From Armatimonadota bacterium (GTDB lineage Bacteria; Armatimonadota; Chthonomonadetes; Chthonomonadales; Chthonomonadaceae), in assembly GCA_028871815.1 (NCBI GenBank), contig JAGWMJ010000006.1:124001-188000 (forward strand): DNA of 64,000 nt, given 5' to 3'. A program made the translations under genes and the position numbers. Position 1 is the stretch's first letter. Every line of letters begins with the position of its first letter. Under the pieces are notes generated by a model. That model saw only the letters and a list, made by a program, of their open reading frames with translations, was not told the origin of the DNA and did no database searches. Positions 39,358 to 50,785 of this stretch are shown piece after piece.

Positions 39358-39390
39358 CAGGTGTGCGGCGTCGTGGTTTGGCGGCGGTGG

Positions 39391-39960
39391 CACGTGTGGC
39401 GACAAACTACACCTCTCCGCCATAGGACCAATGGGACGTATGCGACGTATAGGTGCAGCTGGCCGCCCCTTTTTGTTGGTTGCAGCCGGCGGGTGGGCTT
39501 CCGTGACCTATATGTCCGATTCTCGGGAGGGTTAGGCGCCGCTGTTACGTGTGTCGACAAACTACACCTCTCCGCCATGGGACCAATGGGACGTATGCGA
39601 CGTATAGGTGCAGCGAGGTTGGCTGGTGTTGGTTACAGGCGGCGGACGAGGCCGATGGCCATCCGTGACTGGGATTGGCCCCATATGTCGTATATGTGGT
39701 ATATGTCCTATTCTCCGGTCGGTTAGCCGCCGCTGTCACGTGTGGCGCGCTAACCTACACGGCTCCGCCATGGGACCAATGGGACGTATGCGACATATAG
39801 GTGCAGCTAGTGGCGCTTTTTGTTGGTTGCAGGCGGCGGATGCGGCCGGCGGGCTTCCGCGACCTATATGCCCTCTTCTCCGGAGGGTTAGGCGCCGCTG
39901 TCACGTGTGGCGACAAACTACACCTCTCCGCCTATGTCCTATCCTCCGGGGGCCCGGTCT
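39391..39960. repeat. Left array of palindromic repeat units (three full, one partial)
   Basis: Units start near 39391, 39547, 39737 and 39902 at CACGTGTGGCG-like sequences and recur every 155-190 bases. Each contains CACCTCTCCGCC, GGACCAATGGGACGTATGCG, a left arm such as CGACATATAGGT and a right arm such as ACCTATATGTC, separated by a G/T-rich loop (TTTTTGTTGGTTGC). The second unit carries three tandem 9-mers of the ATATGTCGT type at 39683-39709. The fourth unit is cut short and merges with the end of the four-helix-bundle gene. Copies differ by point changes and small indels. Confidence 0.9.
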
Positions 39961-40514
39961 GACGGCTCGTCGCGACGCCGGTGTCTCGCATGACGCATCC
40001 GTTCCCTGAGCCCGCCTTCGGCCAGAAAGTCCGCCTCCTGTCTCCTCAGTTGCTGGTCGAGCAGGTACGTGGCCTGATGGATAAGGCAGATGACCGTGTT
40101 TGCCGCCTGTTCGCCGTCGTCCGATTCGATTCGGCCGGCAAATACCTCATAGCCGGCCTGTTTCATAGCTCCCAGTCGGCGTACCTCTTGCGCCTCCCAA
40201 CTGCACTTGTCCCACAGCCTGAACCGCCTGAGCCTTATGAAGTCGTGATAATCGGCAAGAAGTTCTTCCAGACTTGCCCGCGCCACGCCCGTAAGTTTGA
40301 TCTCGGTTTCCCGTGAGGTACCGGACGCCATACTGCCTTCGATGATGTTCTGTTTACCCGACCGTGCCGCTTGCGTCATCTGGTCGCCGGTTCGACTGCG
40401 CGGCGGCAGAAACCGCGAGCAGAAGTGGTACGTGCAGTCATAAACGAGTTCGGCCTTCCGGTACGAGAGAAGCCCGTTGTATCCGCCATGCTTCGGAATA
40501 AAGCCGTTTCGCAT
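39939..40514 (-). CDS. Four-helix-bundle (S23/Avd-like) protein with C-terminal suffix domain
   Basis: The 191-residue protein shows the four-helix-bundle family pattern: YRKAELVYDCTYHFC, then RTGDQMTQAARSGKQNIIEG (the conserved R-x-x-x-S-x-x-N-I-x-E-G motif of S23/IVS proteins), and SLEELLADYHDFIRLRRF. The C-terminal stretch QQLRRQEADFLAEGGLRERM matches the suffix domain found behind this bundle in Planctomycetes, Verrucomicrobia and relatives. Homologues are encoded in 23S rRNA intervening sequences, and Avd of diversity-generating retroelements has the same fold and binds nucleic acid. The ATG at 40514 follows AAGGA. The stop codon lies in the partial repeat unit. Confidence 0.85.
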   Translation of the reverse strand: MRNGFIPKHGGYNGLLSYRKAELVYDCTYHFCSRFLPPRSRTGDQMTQAARSGKQNIIEGSMASGTSRETEIKLTGVARASLEELLADYHDFIRLRRFRLWDKCSWEAQEVRRLGAMKQAGYEVFAGRIESDDGEQAANTVICLIHQATYLLDQQLRRQEADFLAEGGLRERMRHARHRRRDEPSDRAPGG

Positions 40515-40536
40515 CTCTGTTATCCTTCATTTGTCG

Positions 40537-40638
40537 CTAGCGGTCGCTGCCCAGGTAGTTCGCCATCACGTTGAACGCACTCGCGGAAGGCGAACTGTCA
40601 TAGGATACTGTTCCCGTATCGCCAAAGCCGGAAACCGA
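40537..40638 (-). pseudogene. Possible C-terminal remnant of a gene upstream of the four-helix-bundle gene
   Basis: On the minus strand a frame ending in TAG (40537-40539) reads SVSGFGDTGTVSYDSS, then PSASAFNVMANYLGSDR. It has a balanced composition unlike the repeats, and ends 22 bases before the next gene's ATG. Upstream, the frame runs into the repeat unit. An ATG inside the repeat (MAERC) could make a 45-residue protein, but a truncated gene end seems likelier. No family is recognised. Confidence 0.35.
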
Positions 40639-40647
40639 AGCGGCGCG

Positions 40648-41000
40648 GCGGGTTAGCCGACACCTCTCCGCCATAGGACCAATGGGGCGTATGCGACGTA
40701 TAGGTGCAGCCAGTTACGGTGCTGTTGGTTGGTGGCGGCGGATGGGCTTCCGCGACCTATATGTCGTAGTTGTCGCCTATGTCCTATTCTCCCGATGGTT
40801 AGGCGCCGCTGTCACGTGTGGCGCTAACCGACACCTCTCCGCCATGGGACCAATGGGACGTATGCGACATATAGGTGCGGCTGGCGGCCCCTTTTTGTTG
40901 GTTGCGGGCGGCGGATGGGCTTCCGCGACCTATATGTCGTGGTTGTCGCCTATGTCCTATTCCCTGGGCGGTCAGGCGCCGCTGTCGCCTGTGGCGAAAC
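40648..41000. repeat. Right array of palindromic repeat units (two copies)
   Basis: Two units in the same orientation as the left array begin near 40650 and 40812. The arms are perfect 12-mers in the second unit: CGACATATAGGT (40865-40876) and ACCTATATGTCG (40928-40939). The first unit has CGACGTATAGGT (40694-40705) and ACCTATATGTCG (40755-40766). Both continue with TGTCGCCTATGTCCTATTC. The two arrays flank the four-helix-bundle gene as direct copies. Confidence 0.9.
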
Positions 41001-41098: not shown

Positions 41099-42358
41099 GT
41101 GGGCAACGGAAACGAGAACAGCGCGATTGTGCTGGAGACGGCCAGGCGCGTTGCGCTTGACATTCTCTCCAGCAATACCGGCGTTGAGGCGCTGAAGGAT
41201 ATCGCGGAGGCCGCGCGCACTCTTTCCGGAGCGCGTTACGCTGCTCTGGGGGTGGCCCGGCTCGATGGCGAGGGACTGGCCGAATTCGTTACGGTCGGCC
41301 TCACGCCTCACCAGGAGGCGGCAATCGGCGCCCGCCCGCGCGGCCTGGGCGTTTTGGGGCACCTCCTGAGCTGCAGGACGCCTGTGCGGATCGACCGGCT
41401 CAGCCAGCATGAGCGCTCGTTCGGCGTACCTGCAGGCCATCCACAGATGGAGAGCTTTCTGGGCGTGCCGATCTGGGCCGGCGACTCGGTTGCGGGAAGC
41501 CTCTATCTCACCGATAAACGCGGAGGTGAGGGCTTTACGGAGGATGACGAGATTGCCGTTCAGGCGCTCGGCGAGTACGCAGCCGTTGCGATCTACAACC
41601 TGCACAGCCTGGCGCGCCAGCGCGCGCTCGTTCGCGGGTTTATTTCGGCGCAGGAAGAGGAGCGCCGGGCGGTAGCCTGCGACCTGCACGACGGCCTGAC
41701 GCAGTTCGTTATGGCCTCGCACGCGCACCTGCAGGCGTTCCAGCGGGCCAGCGCGGCAGGGCGCTCGACGCAGGCGGAACTCGAACTGGAACAGGGCTTG
41801 CGCTGCCTGAACCAGGCCGTGCTGGAGTCGCGCAGGCTGGTGAACGGTCTGCGACCGCTGGCGCTCACAGCGCTTGGTTTGGCCGGCGCGCTGGAGCAGA
41901 TGTTGGGCGAGGAGAAACGCGCTGCGGGATGGCCGGAAGCGAGACTGGAGCATAATATAGGCGGCAGGCGGTTTGATGCGGGTGTGGAGGCCACGCTGTA
42001 TCGCGTGGCACAGGAGGCGCTGACCAACGTTCGCAAGCATGCGGGTCCGGCGTCGGTGGTGGTGGAACTGTTCGCGGAGAGCGCGGCTGAAGGGTGCGCG
42101 GAGGCGCTGAAACTGACTGTGCGAGACTCGGGAATTGGATTCGCGTTCGAGAGACTCCCCGTGGATTACAACCGCGCCGGACTTCCGGGCATGGCGGAGA
42201 GGATGCGGCTGCTGAGTGGTTCATTGAAGATAGAGAGTGCGCCGGGAACCGGAACGCTGGTTACTGCGCACGCGCCGGCATTGCCTCCCGACGCCGGTCC
42301 CGCTGAGCTTGCGGCGCAGCAGAACGACGTTCCGGGCGCCGAGAATCGGATCGCATGA
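41099..42358 (+). CDS. GAF-domain sensor histidine kinase (HisKA_3 / NarX type)
   Basis: The 419-residue protein lacks membrane helices. It has an N-terminal GAF domain (about residues 25-180, FLGVPIWAGDSVAGSLYLTD), the dimerisation domain with the phospho-acceptor motif EEERRAVACDLHDGLTQ (about 190-206), and the ATPase domain (YRVAQEALTNVRKHA as N box, DSGIGF and GLPGMAERMRLLSG as G boxes). GAF domains of this soluble type often sense redox, nitrogen oxides or small molecules. The start is GTG; the response regulator overlaps by four bases. Confidence 0.9.
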   Translation: MGNGNENSAIVLETARRVALDILSSNTGVEALKDIAEAARTLSGARYAALGVARLDGEGLAEFVTVGLTPHQEAAIGARPRGLGVLGHLLSCRTPVRIDRLSQHERSFGVPAGHPQMESFLGVPIWAGDSVAGSLYLTDKRGGEGFTEDDEIAVQALGEYAAVAIYNLHSLARQRALVRGFISAQEEERRAVACDLHDGLTQFVMASHAHLQAFQRASAAGRSTQAELELEQGLRCLNQAVLESRRLVNGLRPLALTALGLAGALEQMLGEEKRAAGWPEARLEHNIGGRRFDAGVEATLYRVAQEALTNVRKHAGPASVVVELFAESAAEGCAEALKLTVRDSGIGFAFERLPVDYNRAGLPGMAERMRLLSGSLKIESAPGTGTLVTAHAPALPPDAGPAELAAQQNDVPGAENRIA

Positions 42359-43059
42359 TCCGTCAGGGCCAAACACCTGGAAACCGGCCGGGGCGCAAGA
42401 CGCGGATACTGCTGGCGGATGACCACGCTATCTGGCGCGGTGGTGTGGCGGCGATCCTGGCCGACACCGAGTTTGAGATTGTTGGCGAGACCAGCTCCGG
42501 CGCCGAGGCCATTGAAGCAGCGCGCCGGCTCAAGCCCGCGATGACGCTGCTGGATATCCGTATGCCGGGCGGAGATGGACTGGAAGCGCTGGTTGTACTG
42601 AAACGTGAACAGCCGACCATGGCCGTGATCATGCTGACCACCTACGATAATCCAACATTCATGGCGCAGGCGGTTGCCGGCGGTGCGGCCGGCTACCTTC
42701 TGAAGGGTGTGGATTACCCGACGTTTGTTGAGGCGCTGCGTGCCGTATCGCGTGGCGATACGCTGCTCTCCGCGTCGGAACTGGTTCGGTCGCTCCGCTC
42801 CGTGAGTGATAACGCGGCCGGCGCCGCGGAACTGGTGACGCCATTGACCGAGCGCGAGAACGAAGTGCTGCGTTTGCTCTCAACCGGCCTGAACAACCGC
42901 GAGATTGGCCAGACCATCTTCATCGCCGAGAGCACGGTCAAGACACACGTTGAGCATATCATTGACAAGCTTGGCGTTTCCGACCGCGTGCAGGCCGCCG
43001 TCTGGGCGGCCCGCTGCGGAGTGCTGGCGCGTCACGGCGCCGGCGGCGGTACGGGGTAA
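42355..43059 (+). CDS. NarL/LuxR-family response regulator
   Basis: The 234-residue protein has a receiver domain (ADDHAIWRGGVAAIL, phospho-acceptor Asp in TLLDIRMPGGDGL) and a LuxR-type HTH (LTERENEVLRLLSTGLNNRE, then TVKTHVEHIIDKLGVSDR). It is the partner of the upstream kinase (ATGA overlap). Its target is unknown; the redox gene cluster converges on it from the right. Confidence 0.93.
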   Translation: MIRQGQTPGNRPGRKTRILLADDHAIWRGGVAAILADTEFEIVGETSSGAEAIEAARRLKPAMTLLDIRMPGGDGLEALVVLKREQPTMAVIMLTTYDNPTFMAQAVAGGAAGYLLKGVDYPTFVEALRAVSRGDTLLSASELVRSLRSVSDNAAGAAELVTPLTERENEVLRLLSTGLNNREIGQTIFIAESTVKTHVEHIIDKLGVSDRVQAAVWAARCGVLARHGAGGGTG

Positions 43060-43085
43060 GCCTGCTCAGGCCCGAGCAGCCCCGT
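43051..43085. terminator. Bidirectional two-stem hairpin between convergent genes
   Basis: ACGGGG (43051-43056) pairs with CCCCGT (43080-43085) and CTGCTC (43062-43067) with GAGCAG (43074-43079). The structure spans the stops of the response regulator and the oxidoreductase gene and can form on both transcripts. Confidence 0.55.
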
Positions 43086-45066
43086 TGACCCTGCATGACC
43101 AGCCCTCGCTGAAGGTGAGGCGCTGCATGCTGATGGCGCGGGTTGGGCACACCTGGGCGCACAAACCGCACCGGATGCAGGTGTCTTCATCCTTGAAGAG
43201 CACCATATCTTCGTTGGCCTCGATGCGCGCTTGCGGCGCGACCACCACGGACCGATCTTCGTCGCGCAGCACCACCGTGTTCTTCTTGAGGTGGTAGTGA
43301 TCGGATTCCGCCAGCCGCTGGAAGGGCTCTTGCTGCTGCAGATCGAGGAGTGTCGGCATCTGGAGGCAGTGGGTCGGGCATACCTCAACACAGGCTCCGC
43401 ACAGGGTGCACTGCGTGTTCCAGAGTGTGTCGACGCCGCAATCCAGGCAGCGGCCGGCTTCGGCGCGGGCCTCATCCAGCGTGTAGCCAAGATCCACAAT
43501 GGCGCGAGGAAAGCGGATGCGATCGCGAACGGGCAGGGCCGGCAGCGGCACGCGCGTGTTTTTGTCCAGATCCGGTTCGCGAAGGTAAGGCCCGAGATCC
43601 ACGTGGAACTGTACGGCATCGCGGTGGAGGCGGGCGCCCGTGCAGTATTCGTACACCGACCGGGCAGCATGCTTCCCGCTGGCGATCGCATCGATAACAA
43701 GTTTCGGTCCGTAGGCTACATCACCCGCCACGAAAACCCCGTCATAGGAGGTCATCTGCGTGTTGGCGTCCCAGGCGATCTGCCCTGCGGAGAGCCGCAC
43801 GTTGTCGCCGGCTTTCTCGAGGAACGAGAGGTCGACGGCCTGTCCTACTGAAAGCAGCACCGTATCGGCCGGCAGGTCTACCAACTGGGTGTTGTCGTAG
43901 ATCGGGCGGAATGCTCGATTCTCGTCGTATACGCGGACGCAGCGCCGGAATCGCACGCCTTCCACGAGAGGACCATCAGGACCCGGCTTGGTAAGTATCT
44001 CGACGGGGCCCCAGCCGTTCTTCCGCAGGACGCCCTCTTCCTCACCCTCTTTGATATCGATGGTCTCCGCAGGCATCTCGGCAGCAGATTCGAGGCAAAC
44101 CAGCGTGACTTCCCGCTCTCCAGCCTGCCGCGCGGCCTCTCGCGACACGTCGGCCTGTTCTTGACGCAGCACAGTTCTTGAAACATCGTAGGCTACGCTT
44201 CCGCCACCAATCACGATGACGCGACCGCCTAGACGCACGGGTTCGCCGATCGCGACGGAGCGAAGGAACTCGACGCCTCCGTACACGCCCTTGGAGGCGA
44301 TACCCGGTATCGAGAGACCGCGGGATCGCTTGCAGCCGACGGCAATGACGACCGCGTCGTATTCGTCGCGCAGCGAGCTCAGCGTAACGTCGCGGCCCAC
44401 CTGCACCCCACAGCGGATTTCTACACCCAGCGCCTGAATGACTTCGATCTCGGCCTTTATCAGGTCGCGCGGCAGTCGGTACTCCGGTACGCCGAGGACC
44501 AGCATCCCGGCCGGCATCGCCTCACTCTCCAGAATGGTTGGCCGCAGCCCCAGTAAGGCAAGATCGTGAGCGCACGCCAGGCCGGCAGGTCCTGCGCCAA
44601 TAATCGCAATGCGCTGGCCGGTCGGGCGCTTGAGCGATTCCGCATACAGACGGATGACGTGCATGAGGTCATCCGATTCGGCGCATATCTTATCCGTGTC
44701 GCTGTTCTGCAGATAGGCGGCGTGGTCGGGTCCGGAAACCAGGGTTGGCTTGTCCCCGTTATTGGCTGCGCGATAGGGCCCGAATCTCTCGGTAACCACG
44801 CGCTTCAGCGCCCGGATGGCGATCGGTTCGTCGATCATTCCGCGCCGGCAGCTTGCCTCGCACGGCGCACCGCAGATACGTCCGCAGATGGAGGCGAGCG
44901 GATTCGGCCCACGGGCTATGAGGTATGCAAGCTCAAAGTTTCCCTCTGCAATCGCACGCACGTATCCACGGGCGTCGGTGTGAACCGGGCACGCTACCTG
45001 GCAGCGGATCTGATCCTTCCAATAGGTGGGCGTGCCGAGAGTGATCGGGTGTTGTGCCGGTTCCAT
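43066..45066 (-). CDS. GltD-like FAD oxidoreductase with N- and C-terminal 4Fe-4S sites
   Basis: The 666-residue protein is related to the glutamate synthase small subunit and dihydropyrimidine dehydrogenase electron-input domain. An N-terminal Fe-S region (IRCQVACPVHTDARGYVRAI, then CGRICGAPCEASCRRG) is followed by the FAD motif IAIIGAGPAGLACAHDLALL and the NAD(P) motif VIVIGGGSVAYDVSR. The C-terminal ferredoxin part has CTLCGACVEVCP and CIRCGLCAQVCP. It would move electrons between NAD(P)H and an Fe-S or quinone partner. No glutamate synthase large subunit is nearby. It is the last gene of the redox cluster. Confidence 0.87.
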   Translation of the reverse strand: MEPAQHPITLGTPTYWKDQIRCQVACPVHTDARGYVRAIAEGNFELAYLIARGPNPLASICGRICGAPCEASCRRGMIDEPIAIRALKRVVTERFGPYRAANNGDKPTLVSGPDHAAYLQNSDTDKICAESDDLMHVIRLYAESLKRPTGQRIAIIGAGPAGLACAHDLALLGLRPTILESEAMPAGMLVLGVPEYRLPRDLIKAEIEVIQALGVEIRCGVQVGRDVTLSSLRDEYDAVVIAVGCKRSRGLSIPGIASKGVYGGVEFLRSVAIGEPVRLGGRVIVIGGGSVAYDVSRTVLRQEQADVSREAARQAGEREVTLVCLESAAEMPAETIDIKEGEEEGVLRKNGWGPVEILTKPGPDGPLVEGVRFRRCVRVYDENRAFRPIYDNTQLVDLPADTVLLSVGQAVDLSFLEKAGDNVRLSAGQIAWDANTQMTSYDGVFVAGDVAYGPKLVIDAIASGKHAARSVYEYCTGARLHRDAVQFHVDLGPYLREPDLDKNTRVPLPALPVRDRIRFPRAIVDLGYTLDEARAEAGRCLDCGVDTLWNTQCTLCGACVEVCPTHCLQMPTLLDLQQQEPFQRLAESDHYHLKKNTVVLRDEDRSVVVAPQARIEANEDMVLFKDEDTCIRCGLCAQVCPTRAISMQRLTFSEGWSCRVNGAARA

Positions 45067-45158
45067 CCTGCGTCCTTTCTACGCACCAACAGGTGCTATA
45101 CGGCTTGAAATGTGCCACCAAACGCCAGCCCCGCCGGCTTGTGCCGACTCCCGAGCCG

Positions 45159-46034
45159 TTACGACTTGCCTTTGTCGGGAGCGGCAGTCACGATAAACTG
45201 CCCGTTTGCGTTGTCGATCTGCGGTCCCGCTTCGGTGCTGCTGTAGATGGTGAAGGTGCCCGCCTGATCGGCTTTGAATTTGAAGCTGCGGCTCTCACCC
45301 GCCATGATGCCCTGCAGGTCCACCTTGGACTCATATCCGCTGATGCAGAATCCCACTCCGCCGCCGCTGCTGCCGGGCTCCAGCGGAATGCCGTTCGAAA
45401 GCGACTTGACGGTCAGTTGTATCACGTCACCCTGGTGGACCTTGATGACGGATGGCTGAAACCCCTTGTCCTCCGACACGGTCACTCCCACATTCACGTT
45501 CGCCGGGCCCATCGGCTCGGTGACGGTCAGAATCCCGATCATCCCCTCGTGACCCTGCTTTTTGGTTGGCGTACAGGCGAATCCCATGCCGGTGCAGCTG
45601 CAGACCTTGGCGCACATGAAGGGAAACGAGCCGGCCTTGTTGGCAACAAAGCTGATCGTATCCACCTGTCCCGGATCGACGTCCACCGGACCGACGCCGA
45701 TCGCCGGAATCGTGAAGGCGTGGGTGACGTCGTCGCTACTCAACGTGATAACAACGGTGTCTCCAAGGTTCACGTTCATGTCGCTGAACTTGTGGGGTCG
45801 GCGCCACCAGTAGTTCCAGCCGGCCACTCTGTCGCTTGTCCACATGCCGGGCTTCGCGATGCCGGTGAGCTGGAAGACGTGCACCTTGCCGGTCGTCGGC
45901 TTGTTTCGCTTCTCCGCGGTGGCAATCTCCTGGCGAATGTGGTGCGCCTGATAAACGGTCCCGAACACCGGCGCTCCTGCCAGACAAAGCAGCAGAATAG
46001 CGATCGTAAAACCTTCTTTGCCTGCCGATTTCAT
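45159..46034 (-). CDS. Exported double-cupredoxin protein with an expanded CuA-like loop
   Basis: The 291-residue protein has one N-terminal helix (FTIAILLLCLAGAPVFG) and two cupredoxin-like domains (about 50-175 and 178-285). The first shows DDVTHAFTIP (His105) and a loop with Cys141 and Cys145, then His162 and Met165. CuA sites normally read C-x3-C-x3-H-x2-M; here 16 residues with two more Cys (147, 154) separate the second Cys from His. It may bind CuA or another metal. The ATG at 46034 has AAGGAGA in front; it sits between the FAD enzyme and the Fe-S membrane protein. Confidence 0.8.
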   Translation of the reverse strand: MKSAGKEGFTIAILLLCLAGAPVFGTVYQAHHIRQEIATAEKRNKPTTGKVHVFQLTGIAKPGMWTSDRVAGWNYWWRRPHKFSDMNVNLGDTVVITLSSDDVTHAFTIPAIGVGPVDVDPGQVDTISFVANKAGSFPFMCAKVCSCTGMGFACTPTKKQGHEGMIGILTVTEPMGPANVNVGVTVSEDKGFQPSVIKVHQGDVIQLTVKSLSNGIPLEPGSSGGGVGFCISGYESKVDLQGIMAGESRSFKFKADQAGTFTIYSSTEAGPQIDNANGQFIVTAAPDKGKS

Positions 46035-46057
46035 AGCACTCTCCTTATCGGCCGCGC

Positions 46058-47542
46058 TCAGCCGGTATACAGCTTCAGGAAAACCATTGTAATGGCCGTG
46101 AGCAGCACCGCAAGCGGCGCCAGGCTCAGCACAGCGGCCCGGCGGTTGGTCCACATGGTGTCGGCGATCTCACGTCCGCGGATCAGCGCGTAGTAGAGGC
46201 CGAGCATCAGGCAGGGGATCTGGATATAGGGCATCCAGGCGGGATGGAAGGGCGCCCACGCCACGTGCGCGGTGCCGAACAGGTTCCAGCCCCAGCCCAT
46301 CGGATCCGAGATCACAGCAATGATGTACGCGCCGCTCACCATGATCAGCGGGAAGCTGAACGCAATCCATGCCATAAGGCCCAGCGGGACCAGGGTGTAG
46401 CCATACTTGATGAACAGGTCTTTCATCGACGGGGCCGGCGTGCCTTCACGCGCTTTGGCGCTTGCCACCGCCAGTTTTCGACCAAGACCTATCGCGACGT
46501 AGTAGATGGCCGGCAGTGCGACCAGAGACGAAAACCAGAGGATGGAGACGTAGGTCGCAAAGCCACGCCAGTTGCCGACTTCGGCCACGTTCGCCCAACT
46601 CTTGATCTTGCCCCATGGACCGAGCAGCACTACGGAGTAGGCCATCGCCAGCACCAGCATGATGAAGGCTTTCCAGAGTTCGTCGTACCCCTTGATCGCC
46701 TTGTCGCTGCAGAACGGCCTCCAGAAGAGGGCAATGTTATCGTTCGGGCACGATTTCACGCATTCGGTGCACATGCCGCAGTAGTTGTTCCGCTCCAATC
46801 GGCCCATGTAGATGATCCACGGGCAGGCCCATCCTTTGTCGCTTCCGGCGACGCATGCCTTGGAGGTGCACTTGAGACATGTCTCACGTTTGCGCGCCCG
46901 GAGTTCCACCATGGAGGTCATGGAGTAGAGGCTCAGAAATCCGCTGACCGGGCAGACGTAATTGCAGAACACGCGCTGGCGATACACCAGGCCCATCACG
47001 CCGGCGATAACGATGAGGCTGCCCAGCATGATCACCGTGGCCATAGGCCGGGTGACCAGATGCGCACTGAATGAGGCCAGCATCAGGAAGCCGATGTTTT
47101 GAACCCAGATGTTGCAGAGTGGTTTCGGCCAGACCTTCAGTTTGCCGAACAGCTTGTTGCGCGTACCCGCCGAATTGCCCGACCGCACATAGGTAAGCGC
47201 CCGCCTCTGAACCCAGTCGCCAAAGAATGGCAGCGGGCACATCGTGCACCAGAGGCGCGAGCCGAAAGGCATCAATACGGCAATAAGCGCAAACCACCAT
47301 AAGATCCAGATGAAGACGATGATGATGTTGTGGCTGCCCACCGGGGTGCCGAACACACCGGCCAGCAGGAATATCCAGAACATGATGAGGTTCGGGATAA
47401 TCAACATCATCGGGAAGTTGCGCATCTTGAACAGGCGTCCAAGAAACGGAAACTTGAGGAAGAGGTCGACCCGACCCGGCGTCTGTTGTGGTGGCTCCGG
47501 TTGGATTACCCGCAGAGGAATTCGCTCTCCTCCAGCTGCCAT
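46058..47542 (-). CDS. Polytopic 4Fe-4S membrane protein (NosR/NapH-like)
   Basis: The 494-residue protein has about eight membrane helices and cytoplasmic or periplasmic Fe-S sites. Cysteine motifs visible are LWCTMCPLPFFGD, FCNYVCPVSGFLSLYS, CLKCTSKACVAGSDKGWACP and CGMCTECVKSCPND, the last a classical 4Fe-4S pattern. NosR, NapH and CcoG share this architecture and carry electrons from quinol to periplasmic partners or support metal sites. It shares one base with the ferritin-like gene and precedes the cupredoxin gene. Confidence 0.85.
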   Translation of the reverse strand: MAAGGERIPLRVIQPEPPQQTPGRVDLFLKFPFLGRLFKMRNFPMMLIIPNLIMFWIFLLAGVFGTPVGSHNIIIVFIWILWWFALIAVLMPFGSRLWCTMCPLPFFGDWVQRRALTYVRSGNSAGTRNKLFGKLKVWPKPLCNIWVQNIGFLMLASFSAHLVTRPMATVIMLGSLIVIAGVMGLVYRQRVFCNYVCPVSGFLSLYSMTSMVELRARKRETCLKCTSKACVAGSDKGWACPWIIYMGRLERNNYCGMCTECVKSCPNDNIALFWRPFCSDKAIKGYDELWKAFIMLVLAMAYSVVLLGPWGKIKSWANVAEVGNWRGFATYVSILWFSSLVALPAIYYVAIGLGRKLAVASAKAREGTPAPSMKDLFIKYGYTLVPLGLMAWIAFSFPLIMVSGAYIIAVISDPMGWGWNLFGTAHVAWAPFHPAWMPYIQIPCLMLGLYYALIRGREIADTMWTNRRAAVLSLAPLAVLLTAITMVFLKLYTG

Positions 47543-48036
47543 CAGTTCTTCTGCCTTTCTGCCGCAAGTGCACGCAAGCGTGACTGCAGCGCCTCAACGT
47601 GGTCGTCTTCGTATGCCGCAAGGCGCCCGTACAGTTCCAGGAGCGCCGCGTCCTGAACCGTTGTGGAAAGCTCGGCATAGAAGGCTCTCGCGCCCTCTTC
47701 CGCCCGCAGTGCGGCCTCCAGCACGTCACGCCGCGTCATGCTGTCGATGATCAGCGTTTCGGCATCGTCGATGTCTACCGCCTCCACCACTTCGTCAACG
47801 TCGTGCTCATCAGCCGCCGGAATCTCTCCGCCGAAGCGTGCTTGATACAACTCCTCAAGGGCGCGTCGATGAGCCAACTCCTCGTTTTTCATATCTTCAA
47901 ACAGTTCGGCAGCCTCGTCGTTGTACTGTTCAAAGATGTGACCGAACGTTTCGTACCGTTGTGCGTTGCGTGTTTCCACGGCGATCGCCAGCGCCAGCAT
48001 CTTGCGCGGCGGCAGATCTTTCACAGAGTCAGCCAT
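47542..48036 (-). CDS. Ferritin-like/rubrerythrin-type diiron protein
   Basis: The 164-residue protein is a four-helix ferritin-like domain. Likely iron ligands are Glu21 (AIAVETRN), Glu53 and His56 (EELAH), Glu113 or 114 (AEEGARAFY), and Glu143 and His146 (YEDDH), so both half sites are complete. It lacks the rubredoxin tail of true rubrerythrins. It may buffer iron or reduce peroxide in the cytoplasm, or act as an oxidase. Its start overlaps the CuA gene end by eight bases. Confidence 0.85.
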   Translation of the reverse strand: MADSVKDLPPRKMLALAIAVETRNAQRYETFGHIFEQYNDEAAELFEDMKNEELAHRRALEELYQARFGGEIPAADEHDVDEVVEAVDIDDAETLIIDSMTRRDVLEAALRAEEGARAFYAELSTTVQDAALLELYGRLAAYEDDHVEALQSRLRALAAERQKN

Positions 48037-48541
48037 GTTTTTTCATACCTGTTCCGGCGCCGGCCAGCAGCGCCACCATCGCCACAGCCACGAGCCCGCC
48101 AATACCGGCTGCAAACTCCCGGTTGGGTGCAACCACCATCTCGCCAATCATGAACGGATGCATGAAGCCGCATGTTTGAGAACACCGGAACCGGAACTTG
48201 CCCTCCCTGGTGGCAATGAACTGGATGTAGGGCACCTTGTGGAATGCCGTGTGCTCCAGCGGGCGGCGCTCGTACGGCTTGTCGTCGGGCGATATCTTGG
48301 CGTCGAGGTCGTAGCCATCCAGGTAGAACCCGTGCGTCACGTCCAGCGACGTCAGGTAGATCCGCACGCGGTCACCCTTGTTCACATGGATGATCGACGG
48401 GTTGTATGCGTACTTGCTGGCCGTTATGTGGAACGTCCGGTCCGTTGGGCGGTGCACCTTTCCGGCGGCAAATGCGCCGAGGGCGGCTAATCCCACCACA
48501 TACAGGCCTCGCAGGGCCGTAACTGTTCCTCTTGATGCCAT
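48029..48541 (-). CDS. CuA-type cupredoxin (cytochrome oxidase subunit II-like)
   Basis: The 170-residue protein has an N-terminal helix, a cupredoxin domain and a C-terminal helix (FAAGIGGLVAVAMVALLAGAG). The CuA site is complete and canonical: His70 (DVTHGFYL), Cys120, Cys124, His128 and Met131 (CSQTCGFMHPFM, C-x3-C-x3-H-x2-M). In oxidases this site takes electrons from cytochrome c or a small copper protein. No haem-copper subunit I gene is nearby, so it probably serves the electron path of this cluster. Confidence 0.88.
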   Translation of the reverse strand: MASRGTVTALRGLYVVGLAALGAFAAGKVHRPTDRTFHITASKYAYNPSIIHVNKGDRVRIYLTSLDVTHGFYLDGYDLDAKISPDDKPYERRPLEHTAFHKVPYIQFIATREGKFRFRCSQTCGFMHPFMIGEMVVAPNREFAAGIGGLVAVAMVALLAGAGTGMKKHG

Positions 48542-48574
48542 AAGAGCCTCCCGTCTTTGGGTGTGCGCGCAGAC

Positions 48575-50122
48575 CTACAGCGCGAAGTCGTAGAACAGGT
48601 ACCAGGCGTTTCCGGGTACGTGTGTGCTGGATGCGCCCTGAAGGTCGGGAACAAACTCGATGCCGGCTTTCAGGTTGCGCTGAAGGTAACGTGTATAGTT
48701 CAGCGTGATCGTATCCACGTTGAGCGCCGGCTCCCTCGTCGAGTCGAGGCGGTCCCATCGCACATCGAACAGGTCTTTGTCGTCGACCAGGTAGGTGGCC
48801 TCCACGAAGCCACCGGTGTGCGACACGTGCGATAAGCCGGAGCCCACGTTCGTGTCTTCGCCGCGTTGGTAGGCGAGCAGTAACTCCATCGCGCGGCGTG
48901 ACACGCCTGCTATGTCGCGGTGCGGGCCCAGGTGGATGTCGGCTTCCAGGCCATACCGCTGGAATCCATCGGTAAAGCTGGGCTGCGATGCTGCCGGCCC
49001 CATATTGAACGTGTTGCTGCCCACATAGACCACAGGGCCGATCCACCAGCCCTGTGGGTTGGCATAGGAGAGCCGCGCGTAGCCCTGGATTTTGCTGGAG
49101 CCCACATCTCCACGCGTCACCAGGCCAGCCTGATAGAAGAGGCCCTTACGGACGTCGTAGTCGGACTTGGATATCTCCATTGGGCCGGCCGGCACCGGCG
49201 GGGTGGCCGCGGCAGGCGGAGCTGGAGGCGGGCCGAGTTTTTGAGTCAATTGACTCAATGTCTCGTCGGCGTCCTGCTGCGTGATTGTGCCCTTTTTCAC
49301 GAGCACGTTCAGCACCGCGCGAGCAGCGATCACCTCCGGGGAATCGGGCGGCGGCTTTGCCTCCGTCTGGTTCAGCTCGGCCTCCATCTCCTTCTCCTCG
49401 GCAGAGGTGACCTTGCCGGCCTCCCCCACCTTGGTTTTTGCCTCCGGCACGCCTTTTCCGATGCCCGTGCCGATTGCCCCAAACAGATTGAAACCGGTAA
49501 CCTCGTCCTGTTCGGCAACGCCCATGCCGGTTGGGTCTACCGCATAGATTGCGTACGGTGTTTGCGTGAGGATGCGGCCCGTCGAGATACCGAACTCATC
49601 AATATTGAACTTGCCCACCTCAAGGTTGAGGCGGGTAGGGTGATGGCTGATGAGGTCGGTAAAGATGGCGCGGACGTTACCGATTTCCGACGAGAAGCCG
49701 CCGGTGCCATCTTCGTTCTTGATGGTGTCGATCTCGGCCCAGTAACCCATTCTCGGCGCCGGGGTCCCGGCGGAGAGAAGGTCGATTTCACTGTCGAGCT
49801 GGTTGCTGGATGTGCCGCCTGTGCCGGTTGAACCGGCCAGGCTGCCTTGAATGCGCATCGCCAGCGGCAGCGAATCCAGCAGCTCCAGCGCCTTGTCCTC
49901 CGGCATGAGGATTTTGCCGATGCCCTCATCCCCGGGCACCCGGAAGCCGCGCAGCTTGAACGCCCAGCCATAGTTATTCAGTCGCGGCACCACCGAGTGG
50001 CATCGCGCGCAGGTCGTGTGGTACTTCCGGGCGAAAGCGGGAATGGCGCGAGCACCCACGGGCGCCGCAACAGCAGCGGCGGCAGCCAGTCCCCCAATAA
50101 GTGTCAGCTTCCAGGTGTGCAT
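48575..50122 (-). CDS. Monohaem cytochrome-porin, Cyc2-like
   Basis: The protein (515 residues from ATG 50122) has a signal peptide and then IPAFARKYHTTCARCHSVVP with haem motif CARCH (Cys38, Cys41, His42), followed by RLNNYGWAFKLRGF. This F-A-R, C-x2-C-H, P-x-L-N, G-x-x-F-K arrangement is that of the outer-membrane Fe(II) oxidase Cyc2. The rest alternates polar and hydrophobic residues like a beta barrel and ends in WYLFYDFAL, with terminal aromatic/Leu typical for porins. A Pro/Glu-rich insertion (about 235-310) is unusual. The same motif occurs in proteins of unknown role, so function is inferred. ATG 50134 is an alternative start. Confidence 0.75.
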   Translation of the reverse strand: MHTWKLTLIGGLAAAAAVAAPVGARAIPAFARKYHTTCARCHSVVPRLNNYGWAFKLRGFRVPGDEGIGKILMPEDKALELLDSLPLAMRIQGSLAGSTGTGGTSSNQLDSEIDLLSAGTPAPRMGYWAEIDTIKNEDGTGGFSSEIGNVRAIFTDLISHHPTRLNLEVGKFNIDEFGISTGRILTQTPYAIYAVDPTGMGVAEQDEVTGFNLFGAIGTGIGKGVPEAKTKVGEAGKVTSAEEKEMEAELNQTEAKPPPDSPEVIAARAVLNVLVKKGTITQQDADETLSQLTQKLGPPPAPPAAATPPVPAGPMEISKSDYDVRKGLFYQAGLVTRGDVGSSKIQGYARLSYANPQGWWIGPVVYVGSNTFNMGPAASQPSFTDGFQRYGLEADIHLGPHRDIAGVSRRAMELLLAYQRGEDTNVGSGLSHVSHTGGFVEATYLVDDKDLFDVRWDRLDSTREPALNVDTITLNYTRYLQRNLKAGIEFVPDLQGASSTHVPGNAWYLFYDFAL

Positions 50123-50158
50123 CGTTCTGGTCATCCTGTTGGGTTTCGATGTCAACCC

Positions 50159-50785
50159 TTACTTGGCGTACTTCACCAATAGCCGAGCTTCGCTGTGGGC
50201 GGTCACGGTGAGCTTCTCGGTAAGAAGGCCGGACTTTTCGCTCCACACCTTCACCGTGTAGGTTCCGGCCGGAACTCCCGGAATGCGGAAGAGGCCGCGA
50301 GCATCCGATACGGCGAAGTACGGTGTATCCACCACCACGATCCAGGCATGCATGCTGGCGTGGATGTGACAGCGCACGTCGATGGGGCCAACCTTGTCAA
50401 CCTTGAGCAGCGACCGCGAACCGCGTCCCGGCTGGCTGAGGTTGAACGTACCGGTCTTCGACGTGGAGTAGGTGTTGTGGAGGAAGTCGTCCGAGTTGCG
50501 GAACTCCACGGTGCCACCCTTCATAACGGCCACGACATGTGGATTGAAGGTCTTGTTTTGCTGATCGATCACCGCGTGCATCGCCGCGGGGCTTGCATGG
50601 CCGTGAGCGCCCTCGATCGAAATCACGGCATCCACCAGTGCGGCATTACCAGCCATCACTTTTCCTGCGACGCCGTCGGCGCGAGCGCCAACCGAGAGGC
50701 AGAGAAGTGAGGCCGCGGCCAGGCAGCTTGCGGCGCCAAGCACCCTGGCCCCGCCGGTGATGCGCAACGCTCTCAGTGAATTCAT
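50159..50785 (-). CDS. Exported type-1-copper (plastocyanin-like) protein
   Basis: The 208-residue protein has a signal peptide ending near residue 36, a cupredoxin domain with His103 (DDFLHNTY), Cys139, His142 and Met145 (CHIHASM, C-x2-H-x2-M), and a carboxypeptidase-regulatory-like strand region (GLFRIPGVPAGTYTVKVWSE). Such proteins are often annotated as methylamine-utilisation proteins. With intact ligands it should be a soluble periplasmic electron carrier. It is first in the redox cluster and is preceded by GGAGGATGAA. Palindromic operator-like sequences lie 40-140 bases upstream. Confidence 0.82.
   Translation of the reverse strand: MNSLRALRITGGARVLGAASCLAAASLLCLSVGARADGVAGKVMAGNAALVDAVISIEGAHGHASPAAMHAVIDQQNKTFNPHVVAVMKGGTVEFRNSDDFLHNTYSTSKTGTFNLSQPGRGSRSLLKVDKVGPIDVRCHIHASMHAWIVVVDTPYFAVSDARGLFRIPGVPAGTYTVKVWSEKSGLLTEKLTVTAHSEARLLVKYAK

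Follow-up and report, generated by a model that had tools for sequence, protein, structure and literature searches.

A seven-gene operon in a genome of the Armatimonadota raises the question of whether its products could link the outside of the cell to NAD(P) by a single chain of electron carriers. The operon lies in the window, the 64,000-nucleotide stretch of contig JAGWMJ010000006.1 (assembly GCA_028871815.1) that was analysed here. It had first been read as a self-contained route for extracellular electron uptake or metal oxidation. Each of its parts is of a known kind. What is new is the combination, together with the replacement of a Rieske/cytochrome b complex by NapH-like and CuA proteins beside the same FAD protein. 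The gene set is real and conserved, and apparently undescribed. Searches of the open-access literature turned up no account of CuA and NapH-like genes accompanying a Cyc2-like porin.

Gene content of the operon

The seven genes occupy 43066-50785 on the minus strand and form one operon with gaps of 24, 33, -8, -1, 23, and 92 bases (Table 1). All of the families and coordinates given in the initial annotation were recovered on the same strand, and Pfam and NCBIfam agree for each part. The claim that the operon has no catalytic subunit was also borne out, as NosZ, haem-copper oxidase, and nitrite reductase were all missing from the seven genes. A denitrification role was considered and dropped because the operon has no catalytic subunit and the NosZ profiles match through CuA domains only. 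A convergent histidine kinase gene is a possible regulator of the operon by position alone. Two-component genes are also close to related clusters in L069, L070, L074, and L105-L107. Window positions 39374-40938, with an ABC transporter on one side and the histidine kinase on the other, contain diverged direct repeats of 83-143 bases and no clear genes. Some of the repeats hold the recurring phrase ACACCTCTCCGCCATRGGACCAATGGG.

Table 1. Genes of the operon and the adjoining two-component genes in the window.
Gene	Coordinates	Strand	Features
cupA	50159..50785	-	Secreted cupredoxin with C-terminal carboxypeptidase-regulatory-like domain; Pfam CarboxypepD_reg
Cyc2-like monohaem cytochrome-porin	48575..50134	-	519 aa from ATG 50134; 526 aa from TTG 50155
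CuA1	48029..48541	-	Membrane-anchored, canonical CuA site; COX2/NosZ/CoxB profiles
Ferritin-like/erythrin diiron protein	47542..48036	-	Rubrerythrin and MbfA profiles
NapH/NosR-like polytopic membrane protein	46058..47542	-	Fer4_5 and TIGR02163, both below cut-off
CuA2	45159..46034	-	COX2, Cupredoxin_1, nitrosocyanin, and NosZ profiles
FAD (GltD/PRK12771-like FAD/NAD(P) oxidoreductase)	43066..45066	-	Fer4_20 domain and C-terminal 2x[4Fe-4S] domain
GAF-HisKA_3 histidine kinase	41099..42358	+	Convergent with the operon
NarL/LuxR-type response regulator	42355..43059	+	Ends 7 bases from the FAD stop codon

An alignment of cupA with nine relatives showed invariant type-1 copper ligands (H and C..H..M), and cupA adjoins the porin gene in most related loci. 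CuA1 contains the CuA site CSQTCGFMHPFM and an upstream His. Its ligands, H and C-x3-C-x3-H-x2-M, were invariant in all aligned relatives, which identifies it as a CuA-domain protein. CuA2 has a membrane-anchored CuA-like domain and a second cupredoxin domain. The CuA ligands are kept in the alignment, and the loop from the second Cys to the His is 13 residues longer. The second part of CuA2 is a haem-c domain in aligned relatives outside the Armatimonadota. A gene for a YtkA-like lipoprotein, absent from the window operon, is found between the porin and cupA in Neomarinimicrobiota and Ignavibacteria (L070:8340-8729, L075:8221-8664, and L117:7930-8319).

The ferritin-like protein matched Rubrerythrin (2.3e-14) and MbfA (5.7e-20 over residues 5-152). 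The MbfA match corresponds to the N-terminal domain only, with no VIT1-like membrane domain, and at 71.9 bits against a cut-off of 450 the protein is not classed as MbfA. The diiron ligands (E, E..H, E, E..H) were invariant or nearly so among aligned relatives. The protein has no signal peptide. In four loci (the window, L047, L071, and L074) its gene is flanked by those for CuA1 and NapH.

The NapH-like protein has paired CxxCP/CxxxCP motifs and Cys motifs for two [4Fe-4S] clusters. It scored 31.4 bits against a NapH/MauN family cut-off of 213 bits and is therefore called NapH-like rather than NapH. Relatives in several phyla are 45-74% identical. Searches of plasmids gave NapH matches of only 25% and no porin matches.

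A Cyc2-like porin

The porin of the window (AIPAFARKYHTTCARCHSVVPRL) contains a single CxxCH. The published Cyc2 signature is AXPXFAR[QK][TY]..CXXCH..PXL (PMC8406198). The window porin reads P-A-F-A-R-K-Y...C-A-R-C-H...P-R-L, with AXPXFAR[Q/K][T/Y] before the lone CXXCH and PXL after it. The Cyc2-like F-A-R...CARCH...P-x-L pattern first claimed for this protein thus matches the published signature. At 519 aa the porin is longer than the minimum for Cyc2 (at least 365 residues and a signal peptide). A putative signal peptide is seen as a hydrophobic N-terminus ending in ARA, followed by IP. Residues about 220-330 form a Pro-, Ala-, and Glu-rich insert, some 100 residues long, that is absent from the porins of other phyla.

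AlphaFold2 gave no usable model of the window porin (pLDDT 30). The model of the Ignavibacteria orthologue, of low confidence (pLDDT 42), had 16 strands and resembled the porins OmpU, Omp32, and OprP/OprO (E 1e-8 to 6e-7). General porins and OprP/OprO were the templates for modelling Cyc2 in PMC8406198. No relative of the window porin was found in a sequence search of the PDB. A measure of beta-amphipathicity was discarded, as it could not tell porins apart from cytosolic controls.

An internal tree of 35 porins was constructed without Cyc2 reference sequences. Porins with cupA, NapH, or Rieske neighbours all fell on one side of a branch with support of 82/73. Within this tree the sister group of the window porin consisted of five Armatimonadota porins with Rieske linkage (support 100/99). 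A second Cyc2-like cytochrome-porin of 396 aa (PMFARTYHLPCARCH...PRL) is encoded on contig 11 of the same genome (L048:8242-9429), with no cupA link. In the 35-porin tree it was placed far from the window porin, among the unlinked porins. It is a few hundred bases from a YtfE/ScdA-like gene, recognised by eye, and an acetyl-CoA synthetase-like gene. A hot-spring Armatimonadota genome has a Cyc2 annotation assigned to Cyc2 cluster 3 (PMC9671151). Characterised Cyc2 proteins oxidise Fe(II) (PMC8406198), and the function of divergent Cyc2 homologues is uncertain.

Distribution of the gene cluster

A scan of genome contigs with the single porin sequence gave no relatives, and a second scan was then made with an alignment of NapH as query. 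A NapH-gene relative at high identity was present in two of the 291 genomes of the Armatimonadota. With the alignment, relatives at E below 1e-60 turned up in 3 of the 199 Neomarinimicrobiota, in 2 of the 294 genomes from the class to which the Ignavibacteria locus L075 belongs, and in 7 of the 195 genomes in the phylum of the Myxococcales match. The gene is rare and scattered, which would fit horizontal movement of the gene set.

CuA1 and CuA2 flank NapH in nearly every locus with enough surrounding DNA. The initial annotation had proposed conserved co-occurrence of the genes as its check, with gene order kept in no relative as the refutation. Porin and cupA were found with CuA1-NapH-CuA2 in Neomarinimicrobiota (L069/L117 and L070), Kapaibacteria (L073), Ignavibacteria (L075), and Myxococcota (L106, L107, and L108). 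The gene set is beyond chance because its order is preserved in other phyla, and the refutation by gene order does not hold. Two Myxococcota loci (L104 and L105) have cupA-CuA1-NapH-CuA2 with no porin in the stretch read. L047, from another family in the same order as the window genome, has CuA1-ferritin-NapH-CuA2-FAD in the gene order of the window, and its contig ends before the porin. In the Kapaibacteria, Ignavibacteria, and Myxococcota loci read, the core porin-cupA-CuA1-NapH-CuA2 is without FAD.

In Lindowbacteria (L074) CuA1-ferritin-NapH-CuA2-cupA adjoins AioAB arsenite oxidase genes, both above the curated cut-off, and this fits a donor-side role. The same stretch (L074:1-18419) encodes a NapA-like nitrate reductase, two tetrahaem proteins, the CuA1-ferritin-NapH-CuA2-cupA set, two MauG-type dihaem proteins, and AioBA. 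It suggests arsenite oxidation coupled to nitrate reduction. A Myxococcales contig encodes a 741-aa DmsE-like protein with 19 CxxCH motifs downstream of NapH-CuA2 (L072:5573-7795).

Origin of the FAD protein

The FAD protein scored 395 bits against PRK12771, below the cut-off of 516 bits. After L047, its nearest relatives in the phylum were four proteins of 53-57% identity, and Rieske and cytochrome b genes were downstream of all four. In the tree the FAD proteins of the window and L047 were nested among Rieske-linked FAD proteins, with 100/100 for the set of six. By this nesting the window protein is of the type encoded with Rieske/cytochrome b complexes. None of the operon's seven genes encodes a Rieske protein, cytochrome b, or subunit IV. 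Given the Rieske linkage of the four relatives and the nesting of the window and L047 sequences within that group, a Rieske/cytochrome b complex is very probably the source of the FAD protein, with NapH and CuA proteins now in the place of that complex.

Five genomes of another Armatimonadota family (L064, L063, L050, L049, and L065) have the run porin-FAD-Rieske-cytochrome b-SUIV-multihaem cytochrome, the last of about 1050 aa. In four of the five, cupA is ahead of the porin; the contig of L065 ends there. A CcmF gene is near the run in L064 and L065. A single run in Neomarinimicrobiota (L070) contains porin, YtkA-like lipoprotein, cupA, CuA1, NapH, CuA2, FAD, Rieske, cytochrome b, subunit IV, and an octahaem cytochrome. 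Four other Armatimonadota genomes (L144:9332-14866, L145, L146, and L147) have FAD-Rieske-fused cytochrome b/SUIV-hexahaem cytochrome, with no porin in the stretch read.

Route and direction of electron flow

The window genome is 3.68 Mb in 22 contigs and 98% complete. It has one COX1 (haem-copper oxidase), located on contig 8 (L143) in a gene run resembling alternative complex III and cytochrome oxidase. The only cytochrome b of the genome (L142, contig 3) is fused to a cytochrome c domain and has no FAD neighbour. RuBisCO was looked for in the genome and not found.

As anatomy, a chain from the outer membrane to NAD(P) is well supported, and an electron chain that spans the envelope in one direction or the other is probable. 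Our preferred reading is a directed chain from an external donor through the porin and copper carriers to the oxidase, with a NapH-FAD branch to NAD(P)+, and we give it a probability of roughly 0.5. The haem of the Cyc2-type porin would exchange electrons with an extracellular donor, for which Fe(II) or a dissolved reductant like it is the likeliest candidate. Across the periplasm the carriers would be the cupredoxin, which is secreted, and CuA1 and CuA2, both anchored in the membrane, and the main flow would run downhill to the haem-copper oxidase. In a side branch the NapH-like protein, with Fe-S clusters at the membrane, would connect both the quinone pool and the CuA proteins with the cytoplasmic FAD/4Fe-4S protein, which would reduce NAD(P)+. 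The NapH-like protein would here take the place of the Rieske/cytochrome b complex found beside the same FAD protein in relatives. We infer physical contacts between these partners as well as the inward direction, the donor, and the energy coupling.

To reach NAD(P)+ from CuA-like potentials, electrons would have to climb steeply and to move against the membrane potential. The operon has no pump or Q-cycle subunit and no evident coupling site. The uphill step might be coupled by the proton motive force or by quinol bifurcation, as proposed for anammox complexes. A specific form of the latter is quite unlikely. In it, CuA1-NapH-CuA2 and FAD would make up a membrane redox complex replacing Rieske/cytochrome b, with quinol oxidised at NapH and its electrons split, one bound for the oxidase by way of CuA and one for NAD(P)+ by way of FAD. 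Points against inward flow are that it is uphill unless coupled, that RuBisCO was not found, and that the FAD gene is optional across clusters. Of the original uptake reading, the co-occurrence of the genes, the Cyc2 motif, and the link of FAD to Rieske proteins speak in its favour. Inward flow, a metal donor, and self-containedness are presumed in that reading. FAD follows CuA2 in only three of the clusters read (the window, L047, and L070), and the transfer is uphill.

The same genes could work in reverse. FAD and NapH would then oxidise NAD(P)H or quinol, and the CuA proteins, cupredoxin, and porin would deliver the electrons to an external acceptor, as redox overflow or Fe(III) reduction. 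Every step would be downhill with no coupling needed. Known NapH proteins are quinol dehydrogenases that take electrons from quinol outward, and the failure to find RuBisCO also agrees with export. However, electrons could be disposed of through the aerobic haem-copper oxidase that the genome encodes, the module in L074 adjoins arsenite oxidase, a donor-side enzyme, and the Cyc2 proteins characterised so far oxidise Fe(II) (PMC8406198). Export is therefore considered unlikely.

Similarly doubtful is a chain with FAD and NapH as accessories, in which porin, cupredoxin, and CuA would supply the terminal oxidase, quinone would be the only electron-exchange partner of NapH, and FAD would be a late passenger. 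The Kapaibacteria, Ignavibacteria, and Myxococcota loci with the core cluster and no FAD would fit, as would the CuA2 of relatives, in which CuA and haem c are combined as in caa3 oxidase subunit II. However, the position of FAD is kept in two Armatimonadota families at 63% identity, and in L070. This line of FAD proteins otherwise travels with Rieske/cytochrome b, which makes the NAD(P) link more likely.

Copper or iron detoxification by oxidation in the envelope, in which iron would be stored or handled by the ferritin-like protein, is very unlikely. In its favour, a CueO-like multicopper oxidase gene is just downstream of the Ignavibacteria cluster (L075), and MbfA, whose N-terminal domain is similar to the ferritin-like protein, is an iron exporter. 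Against it, the oxidase was seen in no other relative read, the window operon has no metal-efflux gene, and detoxification needs neither a Cyc2 porin nor a membrane Fe-S protein nor an NAD(P) oxidoreductase.

Comparison with known systems

The preferred directed chain shares several features with the Cyc2 iron oxidation pathway of Acidithiobacillus ferrooxidans and Mariprofundus ferrooxydans PV-1. These are a fused monohaem cytochrome-porin with the Cyc2 signature, periplasmic copper or haem carriers, a genomic haem-copper oxidase, and a suspected uphill branch to NAD(P)H. The window differs in its longer porin with the 100-aa insert and in having no rusticyanin/Cyc1/bc1 arrangement. CuA1-NapH-CuA2 and the FAD/4Fe-4S protein are beside the porin instead.

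In the anammox Rieske/cytochrome b complexes (Kustd1480-1485 and Kuste4569-4574) an FAD/NAD(P) oxidoreductase with Fe-S clusters is likewise the cytoplasmic end of a membrane redox complex. Genes for Rieske, b6-like cytochrome b, SUIV, and multihaem cytochrome c accompany those for the relatives of the window FAD protein. The window has no Rieske, cytochrome b, or SUIV, and NapH-like and CuA proteins are there instead. Generation of NAD(P)H by the anammox complexes with an NAD(P) oxidoreductase subunit has been proposed and is itself unproven (PMC12954380).

With the NapH/NosR polyferredoxin quinol dehydrogenases the NapH-like protein shares a polytopic membrane architecture, paired Cys motifs, and two [4Fe-4S] motifs. 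It differs in scoring far under the family cut-off, in having no catalytic partner (NapA or NosZ) in the operon, and in being flanked by CuA proteins. The CuA2 of relatives resembles caa3 oxidase subunit II in having CuA then a haem-c domain on a membrane anchor. There is no COX1 partner, and the Armatimonadota have a cupredoxin domain in place of the haem domain.

Significance

As RuBisCO was not found, the system may give the organism additional energy or help to balance its redox state instead of supporting growth on CO2. In Cyc2 oxidisers the onward transfer of electrons past the outer membrane and their lifting to NAD(P)H are poorly known, and the cluster is a compact, recurring candidate for the missing parts. 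It ties divergent Cyc2-like porins, whose function is uncertain, to a line of NAD(P) oxidoreductases found beside Rieske/cytochrome b. If a bifurcating NapH/CuA/FAD complex were true, a Cyc2-type chain could dispense with both a bc complex and the reversal of complex I in making NAD(P)H. The operon of five Armatimonadota that runs from porin to bc-type complex merits separate study. CuA1-NapH-CuA2 adjoining a CARCH porin is a marker by which such organisms can be found in uncultured phyla.
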